Of a stretch of 64,000 bases of DNA, positions 1-11,267 are shown one piece after another; the stretch's first letter is position 1; the number at the start of each line of letters is the position of its first letter. Location of the stretch: assembly GCF_022429625.1 (NCBI RefSeq), contig NZ_CP092483.1:3638501-3702500 (forward strand), given 5' to 3'. This stretch comes from Devosia lacusdianchii. Its GTDB lineage: Bacteria > Pseudomonadota > Alphaproteobacteria > Rhizobiales > Devosiaceae. The position numbers and the translations under genes were made by a program. Below the pieces are notes generated by a model, which saw only the letters and a program-made list of their open reading frames with translations, did no database searches and had not been told where the DNA came from.

Positions 1-98
1 GCAGCCAGGGCGAAGGCGGCCGGATAGCCGATCACCATGAACAGGATCAGCCCACCGAACATCAACGGCGCCATATTGGCGCGAATGAAATCAATCAT
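1..98 (-). CDS. dctM: TRAP transporter large permease (DctM), N-terminal fragment
   Basis: Only the first 32 codons are in the window; the gene runs off the left edge. The translation begins MIDFIRANMAPLMFGG and continues into a hydrophobic segment ending in YPAAFALA, which is typical of the first membrane helix of DctM/SiaM large subunits. The start codon overlaps the stop of the small subunit by four bases (ATGA), so the pair is translationally coupled. DctM forms the ion-coupled translocation channel for an organic acid delivered by a periplasmic DctP protein, which would lie outside the window. The identification relies on the hydrophobic start and the dctQ neighbour. Confidence 0.85.
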   Translation of the reverse strand, partial: MIDFIRANMAPLMFGGLILFMVIGYPAAFALA

Positions 99-733
99 TG
101 CAGCGGTTTCTCATAGGCGAATTCACGCACGTAATTGGTAGTGAGTGCCAGGATGCATTTGACGATCTCGGCAATGCCCTGGAGCCCGAGAATCGCGAAG
201 CCGATGGGGATCATGAAACGCATCGGCCAAAGGGGCAAACCGCCCGCATTCAGCGAACCCTCATTGCGCACGAAGGCCTGTAGCGCCCAGCCCCAGGTAA
301 AATAGATCATCAGGATGCAGAGCGGCATCAGGAAGAATAGGCCGCCGAGCAGGTCGATCCAGGTCCGCGCCTTCTCGCTGATGGCGCCATAGATCAGATC
401 GACCCGAACATGCTCGTTGATCTTGAGCGCCCAGGCGCCGCCGAACATCACCATCGCGGCAAACATGTACTGCACCGCCTCGACCAGCGAGTTGGAATTG
501 CGCCCGAAGGCGCTGACCGCCCAGCCGAAGATCGCAACATTATTCGTGCGGTCGAACCAGAGCATGGCACTGCTGGAATAGCGGAACGCCGCATAGAACG
601 CGGTCAGTAGTGCAGAAAACAGCACCATCCAGATGGCAATGAGGCCAAAGATGCGGCTGATCTCATCGATGGCGCGTATGACGCGCAACACTATCGACAC
701 GTCCGACCCTCCCTTGTCGTTTGCGTCGCGCAA
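95..733 (-). CDS. dctQ: TRAP transporter small permease (DctQ)
   Basis: This 212-residue protein has four hydrophobic segments (about residues 30-50, 85-105, 125-150 and 170-195) and the DctQ family's length. The helix I/II region contains the W-A-L-K-I-N-E-H-V-R-V-D motif that marks the family. DctQ is the small membrane subunit that partners DctM in sodium-driven uptake of carboxylates or sugar acids. It lies immediately upstream of dctM and overlaps it by four bases. The start at 733 gives a charged cytoplasmic N terminus; a GTG a few codons later is possible. Its place beside lactonase and dehydratase genes suggests a sugar acid or 6-deoxy-sugar acid as substrate, but that is inference. 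Confidence 0.9.
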   Translation of the reverse strand: MRDANDKGGSDVSIVLRVIRAIDEISRIFGLIAIWMVLFSALLTAFYAAFRYSSSAMLWFDRTNNVAIFGWAVSAFGRNSNSLVEAVQYMFAAMVMFGGAWALKINEHVRVDLIYGAISEKARTWIDLLGGLFFLMPLCILMIYFTWGWALQAFVRNEGSLNAGGLPLWPMRFMIPIGFAILGLQGIAEIVKCILALTTNYVREFAYEKPLQ

Positions 734-1806: not shown

Positions 1807-2606
1807 GCGAGGTCACCCGCGACATGTTGATGGCCTATGCCGATGGGCAACTCGACGCTGACGAGCGCGCCACCGTCGAGACCGCGTTGACGACCAATCC
1901 GGACGCAGCGGCGGAAGTGGCGCTGCTGCAGCGCCAGACCGACGCCATCAAGACCCTCTTCGCCCCAGCTGGCGCTGAAGCCGTTCCGGCCCGCCTCAAG
2001 CCACGCCGCCTGGCGGCCGAACTGAGCCGCCGCCGCGCCAATTCCTGGGGCTGGGCGGCCGCCGCCATCGTGCTGGTCGGCCTCGGCCTGGGCGCAGGCT
2101 GGTTCGCGCGGCCGCTCTTCGACGCCCGCCCCGCCAGCGCCTCCCTGATCGCCGACGCGGTCAACGCCCACACAGTCTATGTCGCCGAAAACCGGCATGC
2201 CGTGGAAGTCGCCAGCAATGACAGCGAACATCTGTCCACCTGGCTGTCCAACCGCCTGGCCACGCCGCTCGGCATGCCGGACCTCAATGCCCAGGGCTTT
2301 ACCCTGGTCGGCGGACGCCTGCTGCCCGGTGAGCCGGACAAGGGCGGCCGGGCTGCACAACTGATGTATGAGAATGCCGCCAAGGATCGGATCACCATCT
2401 ACGTCACCGCCGCCCTGCCCGACCGCCAACCGGCCTATCAGTTCACCCAATACGAAGGCGCCGAGGCCTTTTACTGGGCCAATGCTCGCATCACCTGCAC
2501 GGTGGTCGGCACCTTGCCGGAAGCGCAGATGAAGGCAGTGGCCGGCGCAGTCTATGACCAGCTCACCGAGGGCGATGTTAGCGCCGACCGGATGTATCGG
2601 GGATAA
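1803..2606 (+). CDS. Membrane-anchored anti-sigma factor (RsiW/COG5662-like)
   Basis: This 267-residue protein has a cytoplasmic N-terminal helical domain with the MAYADGQLDADERATVE pattern seen in alphaproteobacterial anti-sigma factors. A single membrane helix follows (WGWAAAAIVLVGLGLGAGW, about residues 80-100), then a periplasmic domain of about 160 residues. The zinc-anti-sigma HxxxCxxC motif is absent, so it is the non-zinc type. The ATGA overlap with the sigma gene means both are made in step. The last 29 bases overlap the 3' end of lldD on the opposite strand. Confidence 0.9.
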   Translation: MSEVTRDMLMAYADGQLDADERATVETALTTNPDAAAEVALLQRQTDAIKTLFAPAGAEAVPARLKPRRLAAELSRRRANSWGWAAAAIVLVGLGLGAGWFARPLFDARPASASLIADAVNAHTVYVAENRHAVEVASNDSEHLSTWLSNRLATPLGMPDLNAQGFTLVGGRLLPGEPDKGGRAAQLMYENAAKDRITIYVTAALPDRQPAYQFTQYEGAEAFYWANARITCTVVGTLPEAQMKAVAGAVYDQLTEGDVSADRMYRG

Positions 2607-3780
2607 CCACCGGCGCGTTCCGTTTGGGAATGTCGTTGGAGTAGATATTGTGCAGGCCGACATTGAGAATGTCGCGTTCGCCGCACAGGGCCATGGTCGT
2701 GTCGAGTTCCTTGCGGATGATGTCGAGCACGCGGGTGACGCCGGCTTCGCCGCCCGCACCCAGGCCATAGAGCATGGGGCGGCCGATGAACGTCCCCTTG
2801 GCGCCATAGGCCATGGCCTTGAGGACGTCCTGACCGGAGCGGATACCGCTATCGAGATAAACCTCGGTCCGCTTGCCGATGGCATCGACAATCTCGGGCA
2901 GCACCCGGATGGTCGACGGCGCGCCGTCGAGTTGCCGCCCGCCGTGGTTGGAAACGATCACCGCGTCGGCACCATTGTCGACCGCTGCGATGGCGTCATC
3001 CGGGTCTAGAACGCCCTTGACGATGACGGGACCGCCAAAGCGCTTCTTGACCCAGGCGATGTCGGCCCAATTCAGCGTCGGGTCGAATTGCGATGCGGTC
3101 CACGCCGAGAGCGAGGCCAGGTCGTGGTCGCCGCCAACATGCCCAACGATATTGCGGAAGGTGTGCCGCTTCGTTCCCAGCATGCCCAGGCACCACAGCG
3201 GGTGCTGCATCATCTGCCAGACCGAATAGGCATTGAACTTGGGCGGTGTCGACAGCCCGTTATGGATGTCCTTGTGCCGCTGCCCCAGGATCTGCAGGTC
3301 CATGGTCAGCACCAGCGCCGAGCACTTGGCCGCCTTGGCGCGGTCAATCAACCGCTCGATGAAGGCCCGATCCCGCATGACGTAGAGCTGGAACCAGAAC
3401 GGCGCGCTGGTATTCTCGGCAATGTCCTCGATCGAGCACACGCTCATGGTCGAGAGCGCGAAGGGAATGCCGTATTTCTCGGCCGCCTTGGCCGCCTTGA
3501 TCTCGCCATCGGCCACCTGCATGCCGCCGGTCGCCGCCGGCGCGATGGCCACCGGCATGGTGATCTCTTTGCCCAGCATCGTGGTCTTGAGGTTGCGGCC
3601 CTCGAGATTGACCGCGACCTTCTGCTTGAGCTTGATCTTGTTGAAGTCGCTCTCGTTGTCGCGATAGGTGCCTTCGGTATAGCTGCCGCTATCGGCATAC
3701 TCGAAGAACATCTTGGGCACCCGGCGGCGCGCAGCCGTCTTCATCTCGTCAACGGTGAGGATCTTATCGAGCGCGGGCAT
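2578..3780 (-). CDS. lldD: FMN-dependent L-lactate dehydrogenase / alpha-hydroxy-acid oxidase
   Basis: This 400-residue protein spans the whole FMN-dependent alpha-hydroxy-acid dehydrogenase family. It has the N-terminal FFEYADSGSYTE motif, the FMN-contacting PVAIAPAATGG segment, the catalytic SNHGGRQLDG motif (active-site His and Arg) and the phosphate-binding DSGIRSGQDVLKA motif. These enzymes oxidise L-lactate or related 2-hydroxy acids and pass electrons to the quinone pool or to oxygen. A perfect 14-bp palindrome lies 31 bases upstream and is shared with the gntR and hydrolase genes. That suggests this enzyme disposes of L-lactate made by the neighbouring pathway. The exact substrate is not proven. 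Confidence 0.9.
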   Translation of the reverse strand: MPALDKILTVDEMKTAARRRVPKMFFEYADSGSYTEGTYRDNESDFNKIKLKQKVAVNLEGRNLKTTMLGKEITMPVAIAPAATGGMQVADGEIKAAKAAEKYGIPFALSTMSVCSIEDIAENTSAPFWFQLYVMRDRAFIERLIDRAKAAKCSALVLTMDLQILGQRHKDIHNGLSTPPKFNAYSVWQMMQHPLWCLGMLGTKRHTFRNIVGHVGGDHDLASLSAWTASQFDPTLNWADIAWVKKRFGGPVIVKGVLDPDDAIAAVDNGADAVIVSNHGGRQLDGAPSTIRVLPEIVDAIGKRTEVYLDSGIRSGQDVLKAMAYGAKGTFIGRPMLYGLGAGGEAGVTRVLDIIRKELDTTMALCGERDILNVGLHNIYSNDIPKRNAPVVIPDTSGRR

Positions 3781-3810
3781 GCGGAAACTCCGGTTTGACT
3801 TGCCGTAGCA

Positions 3811-3824
3811 ACTAACATGTTAGT
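3811..3824. promoter_or_regulatory. Candidate GntR operator ACTAACATGTTAGT (site 1, upstream of lldD)
   Basis: This is a perfect 14-bp palindrome 31 bases upstream of the lldD start. The same 12-bp core CTAACATGTTAG recurs at 9035-9046 and 10363-10378, each time in front of a gene of the same putative pathway. The length and symmetry suit a dimeric FadR-type GntR repressor, and one is encoded at 9048. That this regulator binds here is inference. Confidence 0.7.
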
Positions 3825-4322
3825 CGTCAATCGGTGGAGTGGCGCAGCCAAGTTTGCCGCCTGGATCGCGGTTATCGTCAACGAGCGGGCCCCGAGGCGG
3901 CCACCGCCCCGTGTATGAATTTGTATGAGACGTTAGCCGCCTCGGGGTTGCCGGTTTTTGGAACAGTACTCGGGGATCGCGGACTGCGGACGCTCGCCGC
4001 AGCCGGCCAGTACTCGAACCTGCACGCGCAGCGACGCACGGCCCGGCACCACCCCGGCCGCAGTTCGCTGCAGCGCCACCCGTCAATCCGGGGTGATGGG
4101 GAGAGGATGGCACAGTTTCTGGGGGCGGGGATAAGCGGGATAGCTCGCAGGTGCTACCCTCGTCCCCGATCGTCGCCCTCGGGCTTGACCCGAGGGGTCT
4201 ATACTTGGTGAAGCCGCCGCAAGTGCAGAACCCTCAGGTCAAGCCCGAGGGTGACGGCCGGTGGGTAGCCCTTGCATGATTCCCGGCTTACCCATCAAAT
4301 GCCGGCAAAATGGAGGACGACA
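3825..4322. other. Gene-poor spacer with inverted repeats
   Basis: This is a roughly 500-base gap between lldD and the SMP-30 gene. No reading frame here has the codon pattern of a gene. It holds a 12-bp inverted repeat, CCCCGAGGCGGC at 3890-3901 and GCCGCCTCGGGG at 3936-3947. The 34-base loop between them contains a near-tandem TGTATGA. A REP-like inverted pair lies at 4171-4256. The lldD promoter must be at the left end. The rest may be spacer or may encode a structured transcript. Confidence 0.5.
4171..4256. repeat. REP-like inverted repeat pair (CCCTCGGGCTTGACC type)
   Basis: The left arm at 4171-4196 and the right arm at 4231-4256 are reverse complements with two mismatches in 26 bases. 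Each arm is itself partly self-complementary (CCCTCGGG...CCCGAGGG). Units of this CCCTCGGGCTTGACC kind are common intergenic palindromes in alphaproteobacterial genomes. A folded transcript would form a long hairpin 67 bases before the lactonase start. Confidence 0.75.
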
Positions 4323-5237
4323 ATGGCAGAAGGCGGCGCGGCGCTCGAGGTCATCGATAGAAAGTTCGGGGCCATGACGCATGGCAGCGCAGCGCTTGAG
4401 GTGCTGTATGACCAATGCCGCTGGGCCGAGGGCCCGGTCTGGTTCGGCGATGGCAATTACCTGGTCTGGAGCGACATTCCGAACGACCGCTTGCTGCGCT
4501 GGATACCCGATGTCGGCGTCGCGCCCTTCCGCGCGCCGTCCAATTACATCAACGGCAATACCCGCGACCGCGAGGGCCGGCTGATATCGTGCTCGCATGG
4601 CGCGCGGGCGGTTTTGCGCACCGAGCTGGACGGAACCGTCACCACGCTGGTCGACCGCTACCAGGGCAAGCGCCTCAATTCGCCCAATGACGTCGTGGTC
4701 AAATCCGACGGCACCATCTGGTTCACCGATCCCACTTACGGCATCCTGACCGATTACGAAGGTTACAAGTCGGACCAGGAGCAGGACGGCTGCTATGTCT
4801 ATCGCTTCGATCCCGCCAATGGCGCGTTGACCGTCGTCGCCGACGACTTCGCCAAGCCGAACGGCCTGGCCTTTTCGGCCGACGAGAGCATCCTCTACGT
4901 TTCCGATACCGGTCGCAGCCACAACCCCGACGTGCCGGCCTATATCCGCAAGTTCGCCGTCAATGGCGACCGGCTGACCAATCCGGATATCTTTGCCCAT
5001 ATCGACAGCGGCCTGCCCGATGGCTTCCGGCTCGATACCGATGGCAATATCTGGACCAGTGCCGGCCCCAATGTGAATGTCTACGACCCGGCCGGTGGTC
5101 TGCTCGGCCGTATCCGCACCGGCCAGTCGACCTCCAACGTCACCTTTGGCGGACCGCGACGCAACCGGCTGTTCATCACCTCCAGCCAGTACCTGATGTC
5201 GATCTATGTCGGCGCGACGGGCCTGCAGCGCCCTTGA
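4323..5237 (+). CDS. SMP-30/gluconolactonase-family sugar lactonase
   Basis: This 304-residue six-bladed beta-propeller belongs to the SMP-30/gluconolactonase/LRE family. The metal-binding positions are recognisable: Glu in RWAEGPVWF near the start, Asn in LNSPNDVVVKSDG, and Asp in ADESILYVSDTG. The family hydrolyses sugar-1,4- or 1,5-lactones to aldonic acids. I chose ATG 4323 because GGAGG at 4312-4316 is well spaced before it; an ATG at 4272 has no such site. It sits between lldD and the other sugar-acid genes, so a role on the lactone formed by a sugar dehydrogenase (for example L-fuconolactone) is likely but inferred. Confidence 0.88.
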   Translation: MAEGGAALEVIDRKFGAMTHGSAALEVLYDQCRWAEGPVWFGDGNYLVWSDIPNDRLLRWIPDVGVAPFRAPSNYINGNTRDREGRLISCSHGARAVLRTELDGTVTTLVDRYQGKRLNSPNDVVVKSDGTIWFTDPTYGILTDYEGYKSDQEQDGCYVYRFDPANGALTVVADDFAKPNGLAFSADESILYVSDTGRSHNPDVPAYIRKFAVNGDRLTNPDIFAHIDSGLPDGFRLDTDGNIWTSAGPNVNVYDPAGGLLGRIRTGQSTSNVTFGGPRRNRLFITSSQYLMSIYVGATGLQRP

Positions 5238-5869
5238 GGTTCGATCGGGCGGCGTTCATCACGCAAAACCTGCGGCTCGAACCCGTGCCGTCGCTGCCGG
5301 AGATCAGGCTCTATACCGCCCATCCCGGTAGTCGGCTGTCTCGTTTAGCCGATCGCGACGACCCCGATCCGCCACCACCCTACTGGGCCTATCAATGGGC
5401 GGGCGGATTGGCCCTGGCGCATCATTTTCGGGCGTACCCGGAAGCGGTGACGGACAAACGCGTGCTCGACCTCGGAGCCGGTTCGGGCCTTGTCGGGATT
5501 GCGGCGGCCAGGACCGGGGCAAGGGCGTTCGCCGCGGAAATTGATCCGAACGGCCAGGCGGCGATTGCTCTCAACGCAGAAGCTAATGGGGTTGTGATCT
5601 CATTGACCGATGTCGATCTGGCCGAAGCGCCTGAAGGCTTCGACCTGATTGCAGCAGGGGACGTGTTCTACAATGCCGAGGTTGGCCGGCTGATGCTGCC
5701 GTTTTTGCAGCTTTGCCGGGCGGCCGGAATGGCCGTGCTGATCGGTGATCCCGATCGGCGGGATTTGCCGCTCGACCGGTTGGAGCGCGTGGCTTCGTAC
5801 GCCGTTGGCGACGTTGGTGACGCAAGGGCAAGCGCCGATCGATCGGGATCGGTTTACCGACTCGCCTGA
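5234..5869 (+). CDS. METTL20-like class I methyltransferase (possible ETF-beta lysine methyltransferase)
   Basis: This 211-residue S-adenosylmethionine-dependent methyltransferase has motif I at LDLGAGSGLVGIAAA (about residues 77-91), an acidic AAEIDPN motif and a post-II motif AAGDVFYN. The N-terminal FITQNLRLEPVPSLPEIRLY segment and the YWAYQWAGG stretch resemble METTL20 enzymes. Those methylate lysines of the electron-transfer flavoprotein beta subunit and have characterised alphaproteobacterial members. The start is a TTG overlapping the TGA of the lactonase gene, so it depends on translational coupling. The pathway link to its neighbours is unclear; it may simply share their transcript. 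Confidence 0.75.
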   Translation: MRFDRAAFITQNLRLEPVPSLPEIRLYTAHPGSRLSRLADRDDPDPPPPYWAYQWAGGLALAHHFRAYPEAVTDKRVLDLGAGSGLVGIAAARTGARAFAAEIDPNGQAAIALNAEANGVVISLTDVDLAEAPEGFDLIAAGDVFYNAEVGRLMLPFLQLCRAAGMAVLIGDPDRRDLPLDRLERVASYAVGDVGDARASADRSGSVYRLA

Positions 5870-5956
5870 AGGCCGCTCGAATGCGGTAATCCCTGCCCAG
5901 ACGCCGATCGATCATGCTATGATTGGCGAGGGGCAGCGTAGAGGCGGAATTTTGTA

Positions 5957-7051
5957 TTGACCGACAAAGATCATGAGACGGCTCCAGTCGAAGAGCTGCT
6001 CGACACGCCAAACCTGGCCGACGCGCTGGAAAGCGACCGGTTCAAGCAGTTTCTCGACCACGTGCCCTTCGGTGTTGCGGTGGCCGATCTGCACCCCCAG
6101 GAACGACTTTCCTACGCCAATATCGAGTTCGAGCGGCTGATCGGGACGCCTGCGGGGCGCCTGGAAGGCAAGCCTTGGGCAGCCTTGCCACCCGACGCCG
6201 TCGCCAGCACTGACGGCGAACCGCTCAGTCAGGCCGTGGCCCTGCGCGACGACTATATCGGCACTTTCATCATCGAGCGCGGCGAAGGATCAATCACCGT
6301 CGACGCCTGGTCCAACGTCATAGAGGACGATGTAGGCAAGCCGGCATTCCGGCTGGTCGCCCTGGCGGAAACGAGCGCGCGGACACCGGAGGGCGAGGCC
6401 GACCTCAAGACCCAGATCCAGGAAAAGGACACGCTGCTGCGCGAACTGCAGCACCGCGTCAAAAACAACCTGCAGATGATCACCGCGCTGATCCGGCTGG
6501 AAGCGCGCAACATGCCCGACGATACCGGCAGCCAGGCCTTTCAGCGCCTTGCGGGGCGCATCAGTTCGCTGGCGCTACTCTACCAATCGCTGTCCGAGGA
6601 CGGGCACGCCGAAAGCGTCGACCTCGGTGTCTATCTTAGCCAGGTGGCATCCGCGGTGATGGCGGCACATGCCGTGGAGGGCATCCGGCTCAACCTGCAG
6701 GTCGACACCTGGCCCGTATCGGTCAATGTGGCGATGCCGACAGGGCTCGTGGTCAACGAGCTAATGATCAATGCGCTGAAGTATGCCTTTGTCGGCCGCG
6801 ACGGCGGCACCATCACGCTGCATTCGCTGGTCGACGAAACCGGCTGCCGCGTCACCATCTCCGATGATGGCGTCGGCTTGGCGGAAGGCGTGAACTGGCC
6901 CAAGCCGGGCAAGCTCAGCGCGTTGATCGTTCACTCGCTGGGCCAGAACGCCAAGGCCAAGGTAACCGTGGACTCAGTACCCGGCGCTGGCGTCAAGGTT
7001 TCGATCTTTTTCGCTCGCGCCAATGCGGAGCCCGAAGAGGTCACAGGCTAG
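5957..7051 (+). CDS. PAS-containing HisKA_2 family sensor histidine kinase
   Basis: This is a 364-residue soluble kinase. An N-terminal PAS-like sensor (about residues 25-145) is followed by a HisKA_2 dimerisation domain with LLRELQHRVKNNLQMI, where His166 is the expected phosphorylation site. A HATPase domain follows, with an N box (VVNELMINALKYAF) and a G1 box (SDDGVGL). There are no membrane segments. The start is TTG with GAGG upstream. HisKA_2/HWE kinases in alphaproteobacteria often feed the general stress PhyR system or act with unlinked response regulators, and no regulator gene is adjacent. Its 3' end overlaps tfoX tail to tail. Confidence 0.88.
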   Translation: MTDKDHETAPVEELLDTPNLADALESDRFKQFLDHVPFGVAVADLHPQERLSYANIEFERLIGTPAGRLEGKPWAALPPDAVASTDGEPLSQAVALRDDYIGTFIIERGEGSITVDAWSNVIEDDVGKPAFRLVALAETSARTPEGEADLKTQIQEKDTLLRELQHRVKNNLQMITALIRLEARNMPDDTGSQAFQRLAGRISSLALLYQSLSEDGHAESVDLGVYLSQVASAVMAAHAVEGIRLNLQVDTWPVSVNVAMPTGLVVNELMINALKYAFVGRDGGTITLHSLVDETGCRVTISDDGVGLAEGVNWPKPGKLSALIVHSLGQNAKAKVTVDSVPGAGVKVSIFFARANAEPEEVTG

Positions 7052-7377
7052 GCCTTCGGCCTTTTGGGCTTAGGCATCGGTAGCGCGGCAGCCGTCACCC
7101 GGACCAGACCAGCGAGCCAATCGGCATCATCCCAGCGGTCACCGTCGATGAGGAAATACATCTTCGAACCCGGATAGGCTTCGGCCTCGGTGACCTCGCC
7201 GAGATGGGCGCGGCCAGCTTCAGTCGGTTTGATGAACAGCTGGTCGTCGCAGATGAAGGCCATGACCTTGCCGTCGCAATACATGCCGTATTCGCCGAAC
7301 ATTTTCTTGGCCGTCATGCCGCCGGCACCAGCGCTCTGTTCGAGGATATAGTCGACCGTTTTCTGCTGCGTGCTCAC
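7048..7377 (-). CDS. TfoX N-terminal domain protein
   Basis: This 109-residue protein matches the TfoX N-terminal domain, with the AKKMFGEYGMYCDGKVMAFI signature and the LFIKP strand. TfoX/Sxy regulates competence in gammaproteobacteria, but stand-alone TfoX_N proteins in alphaproteobacteria have no established role. I prefer GTG 7377 as the start because it overlaps the uxaA-like stop (GTGA, four bases), which suggests coupling. An in-frame ATG at 7398 would add seven residues. Basic residues are concentrated at the C terminus (KPKRPKA). Confidence 0.8.
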   Translation of the reverse strand: MSTQQKTVDYILEQSAGAGGMTAKKMFGEYGMYCDGKVMAFICDDQLFIKPTEAGRAHLGEVTEAEAYPGSKMYFLIDGDRWDDADWLAGLVRVTAAALPMPKPKRPKA

Positions 7378-8924
7378 ATCGTTGCCCCGACCTGCCACGG
7401 CACGAATTCGTTGTCGCCATAGCCCAGGGCTTCCGACTTGGTCTTCTCGCCCGAGGCGACCCGCAGCATCAAGTCGAAAATCTCCTGGCCCTTCTGCTCA
7501 ATGGAAACGCCCTCGACGATATCGCCGCAATTGATGTCCATGTCCTCGGTCATCCTTGCATACATGTCCGAATTGGTAGCGAGCTTGATCGATGGCACCG
7601 GCTTGCAGCCATAGGCCGAGCCGCGCCCGGTGGTGAAGGCCAGGATATTGGCGCCGCCAGCCACCTGCCCCGTTGCCGACACCGGATCGAAGCCCGGCGT
7701 GTCCATGAAGACGAAGCCCTTCTCGGTGACCTTTTCGGCATATTCATAGACGGCGGTGAGCGGCGTCGTGCCGCCCTTGGCCGCTGCGCCCAGCGACTTT
7801 TCGAGAATGGTCGTCAACCCGCCCAGCTTATTGCCGGGGGATGGATTGTTGTTCATCTCGCCATGGTTGCGCTGGGTGTAGTCTTCCCACCAGTGGATGC
7901 GGCTGATCAGCTTTTCGCCGACCTCGCGCGACACGGCGCGACGCGTCAGCAGGTGTTCGGCGCCGTAGATTTCCGGGGTTTCGCTGAGGATGGCGGTGCC
8001 GCCATTGCGCACCAGGATATCGGCGGCATAGCCGAGCGCCGGATTGGCCGTGATGCCCGAATACCCGTCAGAGCCGCCGCACTGCAGGGCCAGCGTCAGC
8101 TCGGACGCATCGATGGTCTCGCGTTTGGCGCGTGCGGCCACCGGCAGCATTTCCTTCATGCGCTCGATGCCCCATTCGATGATCTTCTTGGTGCCGCCGC
8201 TCTCCTGGATAGTCATGGTCTGGAACGTGTCGCTCTCGATAATGCCATACATCTCCTTCATGCGGCCGATCTGGAACACTTCGCAGCCCAGGCCGACCAG
8301 CATGGCGGCGCCCAGATTGGGATTGGAGGTGTAGCCCCATTGCGTGCGCTTGAGGATGTCGAACCCCTCGCCCCGGCTTTCCATGCCGCAGCCGGTGCCG
8401 TGCACGAAGGGCACCACGCCGTCAATTTCGGGATAGTCGTCGAGAATGCCGGAGCGGTTGATGCCCTCGGCGATGAACTTGGCCACCGTCGCCGAACAGT
8501 TCACCGAGGTGAGGATACCGACATAATTGCGCGTGCCCACCTGGCCATTGGCCCGGCGATAGCCCTCGAAAGTGGAGCGCTGCGCCAGCGGGATCATGTC
8601 AGGGGCCACCGCGCCTTCGGCAAAGGCATAGTCGTGCTTGAGCGAGCCATCTTCGCCGCCCATGCCGCAATTGTGCTCATGCACCCAGTCGCCCGGCGGA
8701 ATCGCTTCCTTGGCAAAGCCGATGATCTGCCCGAATTTGACGACCGCCTCGCCGGCGCGAATGCCACGCGTGGCGAACTTGTGTCCGCGCGGCACGCGAC
8801 GGACAATGTTGACGCACTGCGGCGTTTCGGAACCAGGTTCGAGATTGGCCAGAGCCACCGCGATATTGTCTGATGCATTGAGCACCAGCGTACGGGCCTG
8901 GGGGCGGATCATCGTTTCAGACAT
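7374..8924 (-). CDS. UxaA-family (altronate/galactarate-type) sugar-acid dehydratase
   Basis: This 516-residue protein is the fused UxaA form. An N-terminal SAF domain (about residues 5-95, with GDWVHEHNCGMG) is joined to the large catalytic domain. The catalytic domain has conserved NYVGILTSVNCSATV, HGTGCGME, LQCGGSDGYSGITANPALG and FMDTPGFDP motifs, with cysteines and histidines that can bind iron. The family dehydrates D-altronate, galactarate and related aldonic acids. Here L-fuconate or another 6-deoxy aldonate is the likely substrate, given fucU and the diketo-acid hydrolase nearby. The reading frame stays open far upstream, but the family start is at MSETMIRPQ (8924). It is divergent from gntR across the operator at 9035. 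Confidence 0.88.
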   Translation of the reverse strand: MSETMIRPQARTLVLNASDNIAVALANLEPGSETPQCVNIVRRVPRGHKFATRGIRAGEAVVKFGQIIGFAKEAIPPGDWVHEHNCGMGGEDGSLKHDYAFAEGAVAPDMIPLAQRSTFEGYRRANGQVGTRNYVGILTSVNCSATVAKFIAEGINRSGILDDYPEIDGVVPFVHGTGCGMESRGEGFDILKRTQWGYTSNPNLGAAMLVGLGCEVFQIGRMKEMYGIIESDTFQTMTIQESGGTKKIIEWGIERMKEMLPVAARAKRETIDASELTLALQCGGSDGYSGITANPALGYAADILVRNGGTAILSETPEIYGAEHLLTRRAVSREVGEKLISRIHWWEDYTQRNHGEMNNNPSPGNKLGGLTTILEKSLGAAAKGGTTPLTAVYEYAEKVTEKGFVFMDTPGFDPVSATGQVAGGANILAFTTGRGSAYGCKPVPSIKLATNSDMYARMTEDMDINCGDIVEGVSIEQKGQEIFDLMLRVASGEKTKSEALGYGDNEFVPWQVGATM

Positions 8925-9034
8925 GACAAGCTTTCGGGGGACGGGTCTCAACTTCGCTTTACGCCGTCCCCATTTGCCGCCAGATTGCGCTCGCAATTGG
9001 CAGCGATGGGCGTTGTAAAGCACCACGGCACTAA

Positions 9035-9046
9035 CTAACATGTTAG
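9035..9046. promoter_or_regulatory. Candidate GntR operator CTAACATGTTAG (site 2, gntR/uxaA divergent region)
   Basis: This perfect 12-bp palindrome ends one base before the gntR start codon and lies 110 bases upstream of the divergent dehydratase gene. It shares its core with the sites at 3811 and 10363. This position suits autoregulation of gntR and control of the dehydratase promoter. Confidence 0.75.
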
Positions 9047-9047
9047 C

Positions 9048-9797
9048 ATGAGAACGGAAGCAAGTCCCTATTCTTTTCTGGTCCGGCCGACGACACTTGC
9101 CCGCGGCAGCGTCACGGCGGATGTGACCAATGCCATCCGCCAGGCCATTGTCACCCTGGCCCTGCCGCCGGGCAGTGTCATCGACAAATCGCTGATCTGC
9201 GCCGAACTCGGCGTCTCGCGGTTTCCGGTCAGTGAGGCGCTGGCGCGACTGCAGATCGAAGGGCTGGTCGATATCGCGCCGCAGCGCGGCTCGACCGTTT
9301 CGCTGGTGCGCATTGCTGATGTCCGCGAATACATGCTGATCCGCAAAGCGCTGGAGTCGGAGGCCCTGCGTGTGCTGATCGGCGCGCACGAGCCCGAGCT
9401 GGTCGAGGCGCTGCACGCCAATATGGCGGCTCAGCGCGAGGCGGCCGACCGCGACGATGCTGAAGCATTCCACCAGATTGATATCGACTTCCACGACATC
9501 ATCTTCCGCTCGATGCGCTTCACCAAGATCAAGACGATCATCGATAGCGCGCGGGCCAATCTCGATCGCGCCCGCCGGCTGATCATCACCCCGCGCCGCC
9601 TGGCGCTGACCATTGCCGAACACCAGGCCATCTTCGATGGCATCCTGGCCGGCAATCAGGATCAGGCGACCAAAGCCATCCGCGCCCATATCGACGCGGT
9701 CATGGTCGAACTCTTCGCCTTTGCCCGCGAGCGCCCGTCTTTGTTCGCCGACGGTGAAACACTGGGCACCGACAAGGACAGCTTCCCGTTTGGGTAG
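9048..9797 (+). CDS. GntR-family (FadR/FCD subfamily) transcriptional regulator
   Basis: This 249-residue regulator has an N-terminal winged helix (about residues 20-85; ELGVSRFPVSEALARLQIEGLV is the recognition region). The C-terminal all-helical FCD ligand-binding domain (about 95-230) has the metal-binding pattern Asp/His in DIDFHDIIF, His in AEHQAI and His in RAHID. FCD regulators sense small organic acids or sugar acids, and most are repressors released by a pathway intermediate. The ATG at 9048 directly follows the palindrome and has no Shine-Dalgarno sequence. The mRNA may be leaderless, or the true start may lie slightly downstream. Confidence 0.9.
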   Translation: MRTEASPYSFLVRPTTLARGSVTADVTNAIRQAIVTLALPPGSVIDKSLICAELGVSRFPVSEALARLQIEGLVDIAPQRGSTVSLVRIADVREYMLIRKALESEALRVLIGAHEPELVEALHANMAAQREAADRDDAEAFHQIDIDFHDIIFRSMRFTKIKTIIDSARANLDRARRLIITPRRLALTIAEHQAIFDGILAGNQDQATKAIRAHIDAVMVELFAFARERPSLFADGETLGTDKDSFPFG

Positions 9798-9813
9798 GAG
9801 ATCCCCCAGGCGT

Positions 9814-9837
9814 CATTCCCGTCTGCGCGGGAATGAT
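9814..9837. repeat. Short REP-like hairpin (TCATTCCCG...CGGGAATGA)
   Basis: The arms 9814-9822 and 9829-9837 are nine-base perfect complements around a six-base loop. The CATTCCCG...CGGGAATG type is a widespread bacterial intergenic palindrome. It sits between gntR and fucU and may stabilise or pause the transcript. There is no T tract, so it is not an obvious terminator. Confidence 0.7.
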
Positions 9838-9884
9838 GTGGCAGGATGATACAACGGCGGCGCGACACCGCCCAAGGAGACAAC

Positions 9885-10319
9885 ATGCTCAAGAACATAC
9901 CGCCGATCCTCGGCCCTGATCTGCTCGGCATCCTTCGGGCCATGGGTCATGGCGATGAGATCGCCATCGTCGACGCCAACTATCCGGCCGATGCGGCGGG
10001 CCCCGCTTTGGTGCGGCTCGACGGCATTTCGGCCACCGACGTGCTCGACGCCATCCTGACGCTGATGCCGCTCGACGATTTCGTCGATGAAGCCGCCATC
10101 TGCATGCAGGTGGTTGGCGATGCCGGCAAGCGTGAACCGGTGATGGATGCGTTTGAGGCGATCGTGCGCCAGCACGAACCCAAGATGGGCCTCGGCTCGC
10201 TTGAGCGGTTCGCCTTCTATGACCGGGTCAAGCAAGGCTATGCCATCGTCCAGACTGGCGAGAGCCGCCTCTACGGCAACATCATCCTCAAGAAGGGTAT
10301 TATCCGACCCAAAGCGTAA
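9885..10319 (+). CDS. fucU: L-fucose mutarotase (FucU/RbsD family)
   Basis: This 144-residue protein matches FucU along its length. It has the MGHGDEIAIVDANYP motif near residues 15-30 (catalytic His and Asp), a FYDRVKQGYAIVQTGE segment near residue 113 and the terminal YGNIILKKGI. FucU interconverts the alpha and beta anomers of L-fucose before a dehydrogenase or isomerase acts. AAGGAGA at 9874-9880 fixes the ATG at 9885. RbsD (ribose) is the sister family, but the FYDR and TGE residues favour FucU. This gene is the best clue to the substrate of the locus. Confidence 0.88.
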   Translation: MLKNIPPILGPDLLGILRAMGHGDEIAIVDANYPADAAGPALVRLDGISATDVLDAILTLMPLDDFVDEAAICMQVVGDAGKREPVMDAFEAIVRQHEPKMGLGSLERFAFYDRVKQGYAIVQTGESRLYGNIILKKGIIRPKA

Positions 10320-10362
10320 ATGCCGCGCGATCGAACGGATTGAACCAAGGTCGCCCTCGACA

Positions 10363-10378
10363 GGCTAACATGTTAGCC
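10363..10378. promoter_or_regulatory. Candidate GntR operator GGCTAACATGTTAGCC (site 3, upstream of FAH gene)
   Basis: This perfect 16-bp palindrome is the longest of the three copies and lies 37 bases upstream of the FAH-family hydrolase start, between it and fucU. It implies that the hydrolase has its own regulated promoter. Confidence 0.75.
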
Positions 10379-10415: not shown

Positions 10416-11267
10416 ATGAAATTGCTCCGCGTTGGCGCCAAGGGCGCTGAAAAGCCCGCCATCCTGGCAGACGACGGCACCATCCGCGACCTGTCCAGCA
10501 TCGTGCAGGACATTGGCGGCGAGGCGCTGACACCGGAAGGCCTGGCCAAGATCCGCGCCGTCGATATCGGCGTGCTGCCCAAGCTCGATGCCGGCGATCG
10601 CATCGGCCCCTGCGTGGCCAATGTCGGCAAGTTCATCTGCATCGGCCTCAACTATGCCGACCACGCCGCCGAAACGGGCGCGCCGATACCGGCCGAGCCG
10701 ATCATCTTCTTCAAGGCCACCAGCGCCATTATCGGCCCCAATGACGATGTGATCATCCCCAAGAACGCCATCAAGCCGGATTGGGAAGTCGAGCTCGGCG
10801 TCATCATCGGCAAGGAAGCCCGCTATGTCGACGAGGCCGACGCCATGGACCATGTGGCCGGCTATTGCGTCGTCAACGACGTCTCCGAGCGCCACTTCCA
10901 GACCGAGCGCGGCGGCCAGTGGGACAAGGGCAAGGGTTGCGACACCTTCGGCCCCATCGGCCCCTGGATGGTGACCAAGGACGAAGTTGCTGACCCGCAG
11001 CAGCTGGGCATGTGGCTCGACGTCGACGGCCATCGCTACCAGAATGGCTCCACCAAGACGATGATCTTCGGCGTCGCCAATGTCGTCTCCTATGTCAGCC
11101 AGTTCATGAGCCTGCAGCCCGGCGATATCATCACCACCGGCACCCCGCCGGGCGTCGGCATGGGCATCAAGCCAAACCCGGTCTGGCTCAAGCCCGGTAA
11201 CGTCATGCATCTGGGCATCGACGGCCTCGGCGAGCAGCGCCAGAACGTCAAGGCCTACTCGGCCTGA
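10416..11267 (+). CDS. FAH-family hydrolase, probably 2,4-diketo-3-deoxy-L-fuconate/rhamnonate hydrolase
   Basis: This 283-residue member of the fumarylacetoacetate hydrolase family has the ICIGLNYADHAAETG segment and metal-binding acidic residues in DWEVELGVIIGKEAR (Glu) and VVNDVSERHFQ (Asp). It also has the C-terminal GDIITTGTPPGVGMG motif. Close relatives cleave 2,4-diketo-3-deoxy-L-rhamnonate or L-fuconate into pyruvate and L-lactate; others are annotated as ureidoglycolate lyase. With fucU and lldD in the same presumed regulon, the diketo-fuconate reading is the most economical. A strong terminator follows directly, so this ends the unit. Confidence 0.87.
   Translation: MKLLRVGAKGAEKPAILADDGTIRDLSSIVQDIGGEALTPEGLAKIRAVDIGVLPKLDAGDRIGPCVANVGKFICIGLNYADHAAETGAPIPAEPIIFFKATSAIIGPNDDVIIPKNAIKPDWEVELGVIIGKEARYVDEADAMDHVAGYCVVNDVSERHFQTERGGQWDKGKGCDTFGPIGPWMVTKDEVADPQQLGMWLDVDGHRYQNGSTKTMIFGVANVVSYVSQFMSLQPGDIITTGTPPGVGMGIKPNPVWLKPGNVMHLGIDGLGEQRQNVKAYSA

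Follow-up and report, generated by a model that had tools for sequence, protein, structure and literature searches.

A recurrent palindrome beside a GntR gene

This article concerns a short palindrome, CTAACATGTTAG, and the regulator that probably reads it in Devosia lacusdianchii. The DNA we analyzed is a 64-kb stretch of its chromosome (64,000 nucleotides of contig NZ_CP092483.1), referred to here as the window. Three copies of the palindrome lie in it: one in front of an lldD-like gene, one between a uxaA-like dehydratase gene and the divergent gntR, and one in front of a gene for an FAH-family hydrolase (Table 1). The original prediction, made from the letters of the window alone, had picked out these three as perfect palindromes found nowhere else in the window, close to promoters, and had read them as operators of a GntR regulon for sugar-acid breakdown. 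Their positions and lengths prove exact to the base, and a count returns three exact matches. With up to two mismatches allowed there are four against 0.41 expected, a number reached in none of 100 shuffles. The window holds 29 perfect 12-bp palindromes, 26 of them distinct; CTAACATGTTAG alone occurs in three copies, and CGCCGCGCGGCG occurs in two.

Table 1. Features of the window at and near the three palindromes; operator and promoter roles are predicted.
Feature	Positions	Strand	Basis
Operator before lldD, 14-bp perfect palindrome ACTAACATGTTAGT	3811-3824	.	predicted operator
Operator common to divergent uxaA-like gene and gntR, 12-bp palindrome, one base before gntR ATG	9035-9046	.	predicted operator
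Operator before FAH hydrolase gene, 16-bp perfect palindrome GGCTAACATGTTAGCC	10363-10378	.	predicted operator
gntR, GntR/FCD regulator, 249 amino acids, predicted palindrome binder	9048-9797	+	Pfam GntR, FCD; predicted structure
lldD-like, flavin mononucleotide-dependent L-lactate dehydrogenase family	2578-3780	-	NCBIfam PRK11197, 420 bits (cut-off 376)
UxaA/GarD-family sugar-acid dehydratase, candidate L-fuconate/D-arabinonate dehydratase	7374-8924	-	Pfam GD_AH_C, 350 bits; 6u7l, 357 bits
fucU-like mutarotase	9885-10319	+	Pfam RbsD_FucU, 137 bits
FAH-family hydrolase, candidate 2,4-diketo-3-deoxy-L-fuconate/-rhamnonate hydrolase	10416-11267	+	8gsr, 336 bits
Putative -35 box of gntR, TTGTAA, 17 bp from TAACAT	9013-9018	+	conserved in alignment of 51 loci; role inferred
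Putative -10 box of gntR, TAACAT, inside operator, ATG after six bases	9036-9041	+	sequence and conservation; role inferred
Putative -35 box of lldD, TTGACG	3825-3830	-	conserved in 22 loci; role inferred
Putative -10 box of lldD, TACGGC (relatives' consensus TAGGGC), 17 bp from TTGACG, operator in spacer	3802-3807	-	role inferred
SMP-30/gluconolactonase-type protein, possible pathway lactonase	4323-5237	+	Pfam SGL, 166 bits (on 4317-5237)

The site across the host genome

The host genome (one contig of 4,355,240 bp, 99.4% complete) contains six exact copies of CTAACATGTTAG, where base composition at the window's G+C of 63% predicts 0.059, and five places with a single mismatch. Every exact copy stands close before a start codon, which follows 2, 10, 30, 32, 39 or 40 positions downstream (counted from the site's last base), and the genes behind them are all of a catabolic type. 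The promoter-proximal placement first seen in the window holds for the whole genome, and the copies are not scattered, an outcome in favor of the original prediction. A relaxed word, CTRACATGTYAG, finds nine sites in the host, eight of which precede genes of the same set.

Within the window the distances are 32 for the lldD-like gene, 111 for the uxaA-like gene, 2 for gntR (one base separates site and ATG) and 40 for the FAH gene. Outside it, sites precede genes for a 974-amino-acid GlcD-like flavin adenine dinucleotide (FAD) oxidase with iron-sulfur (Fe-S) domains (distance 10), for a zinc dehydrogenase (30), for an FGGY kinase (39) and for an aldo-keto reductase (26). The kinase start codon is our choice, as the longest open frame starts within the site; among solved structures the reductase matches L-galactose dehydrogenases best, at up to 97 bits. 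A further site sits in a divergent cluster, 24 positions from the gene for an IclR regulator and 125 from a sugar ABC transporter on the other side; beyond these lie genes for a fuconolactonase-type amidohydrolase, an SDR and an enolase-family dehydratase.

The same picture emerges from the host and 11 other Devosia genomes, chosen for having their sites among the matches listed, in which we examined every CTRACATGTYAG site: 70 of 84 precede genes of one pathway-like set. A site is present at gntR/uxaA, at lldD and at the FAD oxidase gene in all 12 genomes, at the FGGY kinase in 10, the aldo-keto reductase in 9, FAH in 8, the fuconate/ABC cluster in 5 and the zinc dehydrogenase in 2. At the FAD oxidase (L011 9153-9174) most of the 12 have about 10 bases between the end of the site and the ATG. 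A ribosome-binding site would have little space there, and the transcript may have a short leader or none; the extrapolated start of G026 lies within the site. Four of the genomes (L112 3016, L118 2999, L178 3046, L191 2960) also have a relaxed site at what looks by eye to be a VOC/glyoxalase-like gene near eno, a possible further member of the regulon.

The ninth relaxed site of the host is CTGACATGTCAG, at L016 8406, and has no clear target. It lies with CTAACATGCTAG amid many CCTCCTCCCT repeats in an intergenic stretch (L016 8212-8890) that has no clear gene downstream; a comparable stretch of G032 contains CTGACATGTCAG twice.

Conservation in Devosia and beyond

For the gntR locus we compared 50 Devosia loci (L020-L069), 48 of them from Devosia-like genomes or from metagenome-assembled genomes of Rhizobiales or other alphaproteobacteria, with GntR proteins 74-88% identical. 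The site is at gntR in all 50. In 49 of them a single base separates it from the start codon; in L066, where the match starts at residue 14 and the start codon was therefore extrapolated, the two are directly adjacent. From uxaA this site is 93-191 bp away, again in 50 of 50. It precedes lldD in 21 of 21 loci and FAH in 32 of 49. The fucU and FAH genes each adjoin gntR in 49 of the 50 loci; fucU has a site of its own in none of 49 and is probably co-transcribed with gntR. No relaxed site in the 50 loci is left without one of these genes. In the locus alignments each column of the site carries 1.93-2.00 bits of information against 0.23-1.30 in the flanking blocks. Conservation beside orthologs, on which the original prediction would stand or fall, is borne out within the genus, and it extends to the gntR genes of other genera, as set out below.

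Between 5 and 10 relaxed sites occur in 36 of 37 Devosia genomes. A reversed control word gives one copy in 4 of the 37 and otherwise none, and in other families of the order the word itself occurs once in 3 of 24 genomes. Across a wider sample of 75 Devosia genomes the count is 0 in G017 (62% complete and without a GntR hit), 2 in G098 and G065, and otherwise 3-10. The regulator is present in 58 of 61 Devosia genomes and in all 55 of good quality; the three incomplete assemblies that gave no hit are G017, G062 (3 sites) and G066 (4 sites). L053, from Candidatus Devosia symbiotica, keeps gntR and the uxaA/gntR site. G077, a genome of just 2.0 Mb, has gntR and four relaxed sites and gives no hit for fuconate dehydratase or for L-2-keto-3-deoxyfuconate (L-KDF) dehydrogenase; equal match coordinates suggest that L053 and G077 are one genome.

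Among 20 gntR loci from eight other genera of the family, 18 have the exact word one base before the start, and these 18 loci, from seven genera, all have the divergent uxaA-like gene. Both loci that lack the word belong to a more distant genus, g39, and have no adjacent uxaA-like gene. Five relaxed sites read in four g39 genomes include no exact word.

Sites and regulator also keep company in number. The 24 non-Devosia genomes with a GntR ortholog have 2-13 relaxed sites (mean 5.9), the 22 without one have 0-2 (mean 0.41), and the 13 g39 genomes, compared apart and with a homolog 43-50% identical, have 0-3 (mean 1.2). A rank test of with against without gives p=3e-9, a descriptive figure only, as related genomes are treated as independent. 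The search for GntR across the family scored at most 20 candidates per genome, and site counts were compiled by hand. All 75 Devosia genomes were set aside from this comparison, together with G118 (82% complete, 4 sites) and G120 (7% contaminated, 3 sites), neither of which gave a GntR hit. Two genomes were counted as without despite a distant hit, G086 (39% identity; its one site lies 128 bp past the hit) and G130 (33%, no sites), and five g40 genomes were scored as without by elimination, not being among the matches listed.

The regulator and its probable operator

The GntR protein scores 47.1 bits with the Pfam GntR model (cut-off 27) and 76.7 with FCD (cut-off 24.3), which places it among the FCD members of the GntR superfamily. 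A structure predicted from 30 sequences (predicted local distance difference test score 88.9, predicted template modeling (TM) score 0.82) has a winged helix followed by six C-terminal helices, at residues 89-113, 116-134, 138-153, 159-178, 182-200 and 204-228. The nearest solved folds by Foldseek are a Brucella GntR protein (7u5q, TM score 0.77, 30% identity), TM0439 and Atu1419. The regulator had been called FadR-type. The FCD part of that description stands, and the predicted model, with six C-terminal helices and no sign of the extra helix of the FadR group, brings the protein nearer to the VanR group. Nor do family models or the site fit membership of the LldR, UxuR or FadR families. The protein reaches 29.7 of the 311 bits required by the NCBIfam LldR equivalog, and the UxuR, ExuR and FadR equivalogs are absent from the seven NCBIfam families found up to an E value of 0.001, the best of which is phnR_burk at 93.5 of 271.5 bits.

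Asp145, His149, His192 and His214 (D145, H149, H192, H214) are invariant in 69 of 69 regulator sequences. They fit the FCD metal site, an Asn or Asp with three His, described for Atu1419, TM0439 and LldR in PMC7797058, and so predict such a site here. A carboxylate inducer is likely to bind near that metal.

Many GntR-family operators follow NyGTNxACNy, with TKGT/ACMA in the FadR subfamily; BioR and NanR are named as exceptions in PMC4494728. The Devosia regulator shares with FadR-, LldR- and UxuR-type proteins the winged helix-turn-helix and FCD domains, an association with carboxylic-acid pathways and a single site common to divergent operons (PMC4494728), but its predicted site departs from theirs. 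CTAACATGTTAG reads AC-AT-GT, with AC to the left and GT to the right of center, and lacks the GT-N-AC order of FadR-subfamily operators. BioR and NanR resemble it only in being GntR-family proteins with nonstandard sites: TTATMKATAA for BioR and direct repeats of TGGTATAW for NanR are both unlike CTAACATGTTAG (PMC4494728).

The recognition helix differs too. Carrying over the residue numbering of PMC4494728 by anchoring the recognition-helix arginine (R58 = position 38), we find Lys47 at position 27, where FadR has Glu; a variable, mostly small residue at position 28 (Arg in FadR); Phe59 at 39 (Thr); Ser62 at 42 (Arg); and Gln79 at 59 (Gly). Lys47, Arg58, Phe59, Ser62 and Gln79 are invariant in the 69 sequences. 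Two g39 sequences keep Lys47 and Gln79 and have Ser59 and Ala62 instead, and their gntR loci are without the site. The suspicion that the site marks a new specificity is supported by this comparison, in which the published GntR consensus goes unmatched and the helix is altered; between helix and operator order the link is a correlation only.

Putative promoters and a proposed mechanism

At two of the targets the operator coincides with what appear, from conservation and consensus, to be core promoter elements (Table 1): it covers the putative -10 box of gntR and lies between the putative -35 and -10 boxes of lldD. Since the gntR ATG comes six bases after TAACAT, transcript and reading frame would start together, which makes the gntR message a candidate leaderless transcript. 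A search for promoter boxes at the genes for the FAD oxidase, the kinase and the reductase showed no clear pattern.

These positions suggest the following scheme. The GntR protein would repress its own gene, binding CTAACATGTTAG directly and probably the variants CTGACATGTTAG and CTAACATGTCAG as well. When substrate is lacking, a GntR dimer would sit over the -10 box at gntR, or over the -35/-10 spacer at lldD, and so obstruct RNA polymerase. Release would come from a sugar acid or an intermediate further down the pathway, probably held in the FCD metal site, whereupon the dehydrogenase, the dehydratases, the hydrolase and the L-lactate and probably glycolate oxidases would be made together; the transporter would join them only where it carries a site of its own. 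Going one step further, the family may have evolved the inverted operator order AC-AT-GT in step with the changed recognition helix of this FCD regulator, with one stretch of bases, contested by repressor and polymerase, serving both as operator and as -10 box of a leaderless gntR. We lean slightly toward this account.

The probable pathway

In route III, an oxidative, non-phosphorylating form of sugar breakdown, L-fucose is degraded to pyruvate and lactate, and D-arabinose to pyruvate and glycolate (PMC6336799, PMC11199699). Most of its steps have a family counterpart in the regulon, which adds a predicted L-lactate oxidase. The enolase-family dehydratase scores 570 bits with L-fuconate dehydratase 2hne, a relationship that makes it a plausible enzyme for that step (its best match, 4ip4 at 716 bits, carries a superfamily name only). 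The SDR scores about 284 bits with 8xwk, 8y11 and 8y4j, which are structures of L-KDF 4-dehydrogenase (PMC11199699), and is predicted to supply that activity. The FAH protein's match in Table 1, 8gsr, is an L-2,4-diketo-3-deoxyrhamnonate hydrolase; with NF053535 the protein scores 444 bits, short of the cut-off of 500. D-arabinonate is a substrate, and L-fuconate a weak one, of a Herbaspirillum COG2721 dehydratase of the UxaA/GarD family (PMC6336799). The second, GlcD-like oxidase could serve glycolate. Relatives of fuconate dehydratase occur in 45, and of L-KDF dehydrogenase in 51, of the 55 good Devosia genomes, irrespective of the site.

The genes fit the single sugar-acid pathway first proposed, now narrowed to oxidation by route III of L-fucose and probably D-arabinose, and the regulon reaches far outside the window. 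We put at roughly three in four the probability that GntR is the autorepressor of a dispersed route III regulon for L-fucose and probably for D-arabinose and related sugar acids, a judgment founded on comparative sequence analysis. Several observations pull the other way. The site is missing at 17 of 49 FAH genes, and the fuconate/ABC cluster has it in only 5 of the 12 Devosia genomes. Fourteen of the 84 relaxed sites in those genomes have no target of the set; five of the 14 are CTGACATGTCAG (G000, G009, G034 and twice in G032), so that this variant may belong to something else. The incomplete Devosia assemblies G062 and G066, and G118 and G120 (g29), have 3-4 sites each and no GntR hit. In G128, 9 of 13 relaxed sites precede genes outside the Devosia set. 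Curated substrate models are also not reached. FucU falls narrowly short of the L-fucose mutarotase model (119.1 of 141 bits), the fuconolactonase-type protein scores 82.6 of 400 bits with the L-fucono-lactonase model and the UxaA-like protein 407 of 731 with that for galactarate dehydratase; with the hydrolase also below its cut-off, the substrates of these four remain uncertified, although FucU and the fuconolactonase-type protein do belong to their Pfam families. The lldD-like protein, for its part, reaches 371 of 550 bits with the LldD exception model.

Other readings of the sites

The strongest alternative accepts the regulon and changes its signal, from L-fucose or D-arabinose to a general sugar-acid intermediate or to the end products lactate and glycolate. 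The sites at lldD and the GlcD-like oxidase, universal in the 12 genomes where the fuconate/ABC cluster is patchy, speak for it, as does the reduced genome G077, which keeps the regulator and its sites and lacks hits for two route III enzymes. So does G128, where the genes behind sites (L196-L204, L154) include by eye a uronate isomerase, a uronate dehydrogenase-like, a KduD-like, an IlvD/Edd-type and an enolase-family gene, among others, with a hexuronate look to them; the regulon may have expanded there. Against this stand the near-constant neighbors of gntR, fucU and FAH, and the prevalence of both fuconate dehydratase and L-KDF dehydrogenase relatives in good Devosia genomes. We consider a nonspecific signal unlikely, though deserving of attention.

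Some FCD proteins are dual regulators, and GntR might likewise bind its sites as an activator or in both capacities. At gntR and lldD the operator either overlies a putative core promoter box or lies between two of them, a placement that fits repression, and we give activation little credence.

Another protein could read the palindrome, with gntR merely one of its targets. The obvious candidate is the IclR-family protein of the fuconate/ABC cluster (L014 6166-6993), as one relaxed site of the host lies 24 bp from its start. Its occurrence is too patchy for the main binder. Seven of the 12 Devosia genomes (G009, G013, G021, G027, G032, G034, G084) have 5-10 sites and no IclR hit at E<=1e-70 among the candidates, at most 18, scored per genome; the g39 genomes G142, G143 and G147 have the IclR protein and just 1-2 relaxed sites. 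In 68 of 70 loci the site goes with gntR, which makes a different reader very improbable.

Words in two or three copies can arise by chance, but recurrence by chance or as a repeat element is ruled out for practical purposes by the genome-wide excess of exact copies, the near-absence of the reversed control word and the far weaker conservation of the flanks.

Relation to known systems

The autorepressor reading of GntR has its closest parallel in Atu1419, a VanR-group FCD/GntR repressor of Agrobacterium fabrum. The two share the FCD fold (6za3 is the Foldseek match) and the metal-site residues, and Atu1419 too has several copies of one short palindrome, of which one overlaps a -10 box and another falls in a -35/-10 spacer. 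The differences are as plain: Atu1419's operator, ATGTATACAT, keeps the GT-AT-AC order, its pathway is that of hydroxycinnamic acids, and the proteins are about 23% identical in structural alignment (PMC7797058 for the published features). The Herbaspirillum route III genes offer the parallel in metabolism, with a COG2721 dehydratase, an SDR L-KDF dehydrogenase and an FAH-type hydrolase leading to pyruvate and lactate or glycolate (PMC6336799, PMC11199699). In Devosia the genes are scattered under one common operator, a predicted enolase-type fuconate dehydratase is also present, and lactate and GlcD-like oxidases come under the same site. Oxidative L-fucose/L-fuconate loci with predicted FucR sites are described in PMC5507952, for Halomonas, Algoriphagus and a Rhodobacteraceae bin; the FucR motif and family are given in its supplement, and the motif stands outside our comparison.

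The literature that we searched holds no report of CTAACATGTTAG, nor of AACATGTTAG together with GntR. A GntR regulon for L-fucose in Devosia is likewise absent among the matches listed, supplementary tables being outside the search. Repressors of the GntR/FCD type that act locally on sugar-acid pathways are familiar; this regulon, with its operator specificity, is not found in the literature searched. The finding made in the window stands, and broadens into a multi-locus regulon spanning the family. It ties scattered Devosia genes to one sugar-acid regulon and predicts roles for several uncertain ones: the FGGY kinase, the GlcD-like FAD/Fe-S oxidase and the zinc dehydrogenase. A near-invariant site, 69 regulators and the g39 contrast also provide a comparative set for asking how the recognition helices of GntR/FCD proteins set DNA specificity.

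Other features near the sites

The SMP-30/gluconolactonase-type protein is an uncertain member of the pathway. We do not count it as a firm member of the regulon, its gene having a site within 250 bp in just 7 of 21 Devosia loci. Near lldD lies a DctQ-type TRAP transporter gene (window 95-733, Pfam 76 bits), before which a pattern scan of the window finds no site. Finally, a repeat-like, interspersed stretch built around CCCTCGGGCTTGACCCGAGGG and its complement occurs at 4180-4270 in the window and again at L012 7985-8070, in both cases between genes.

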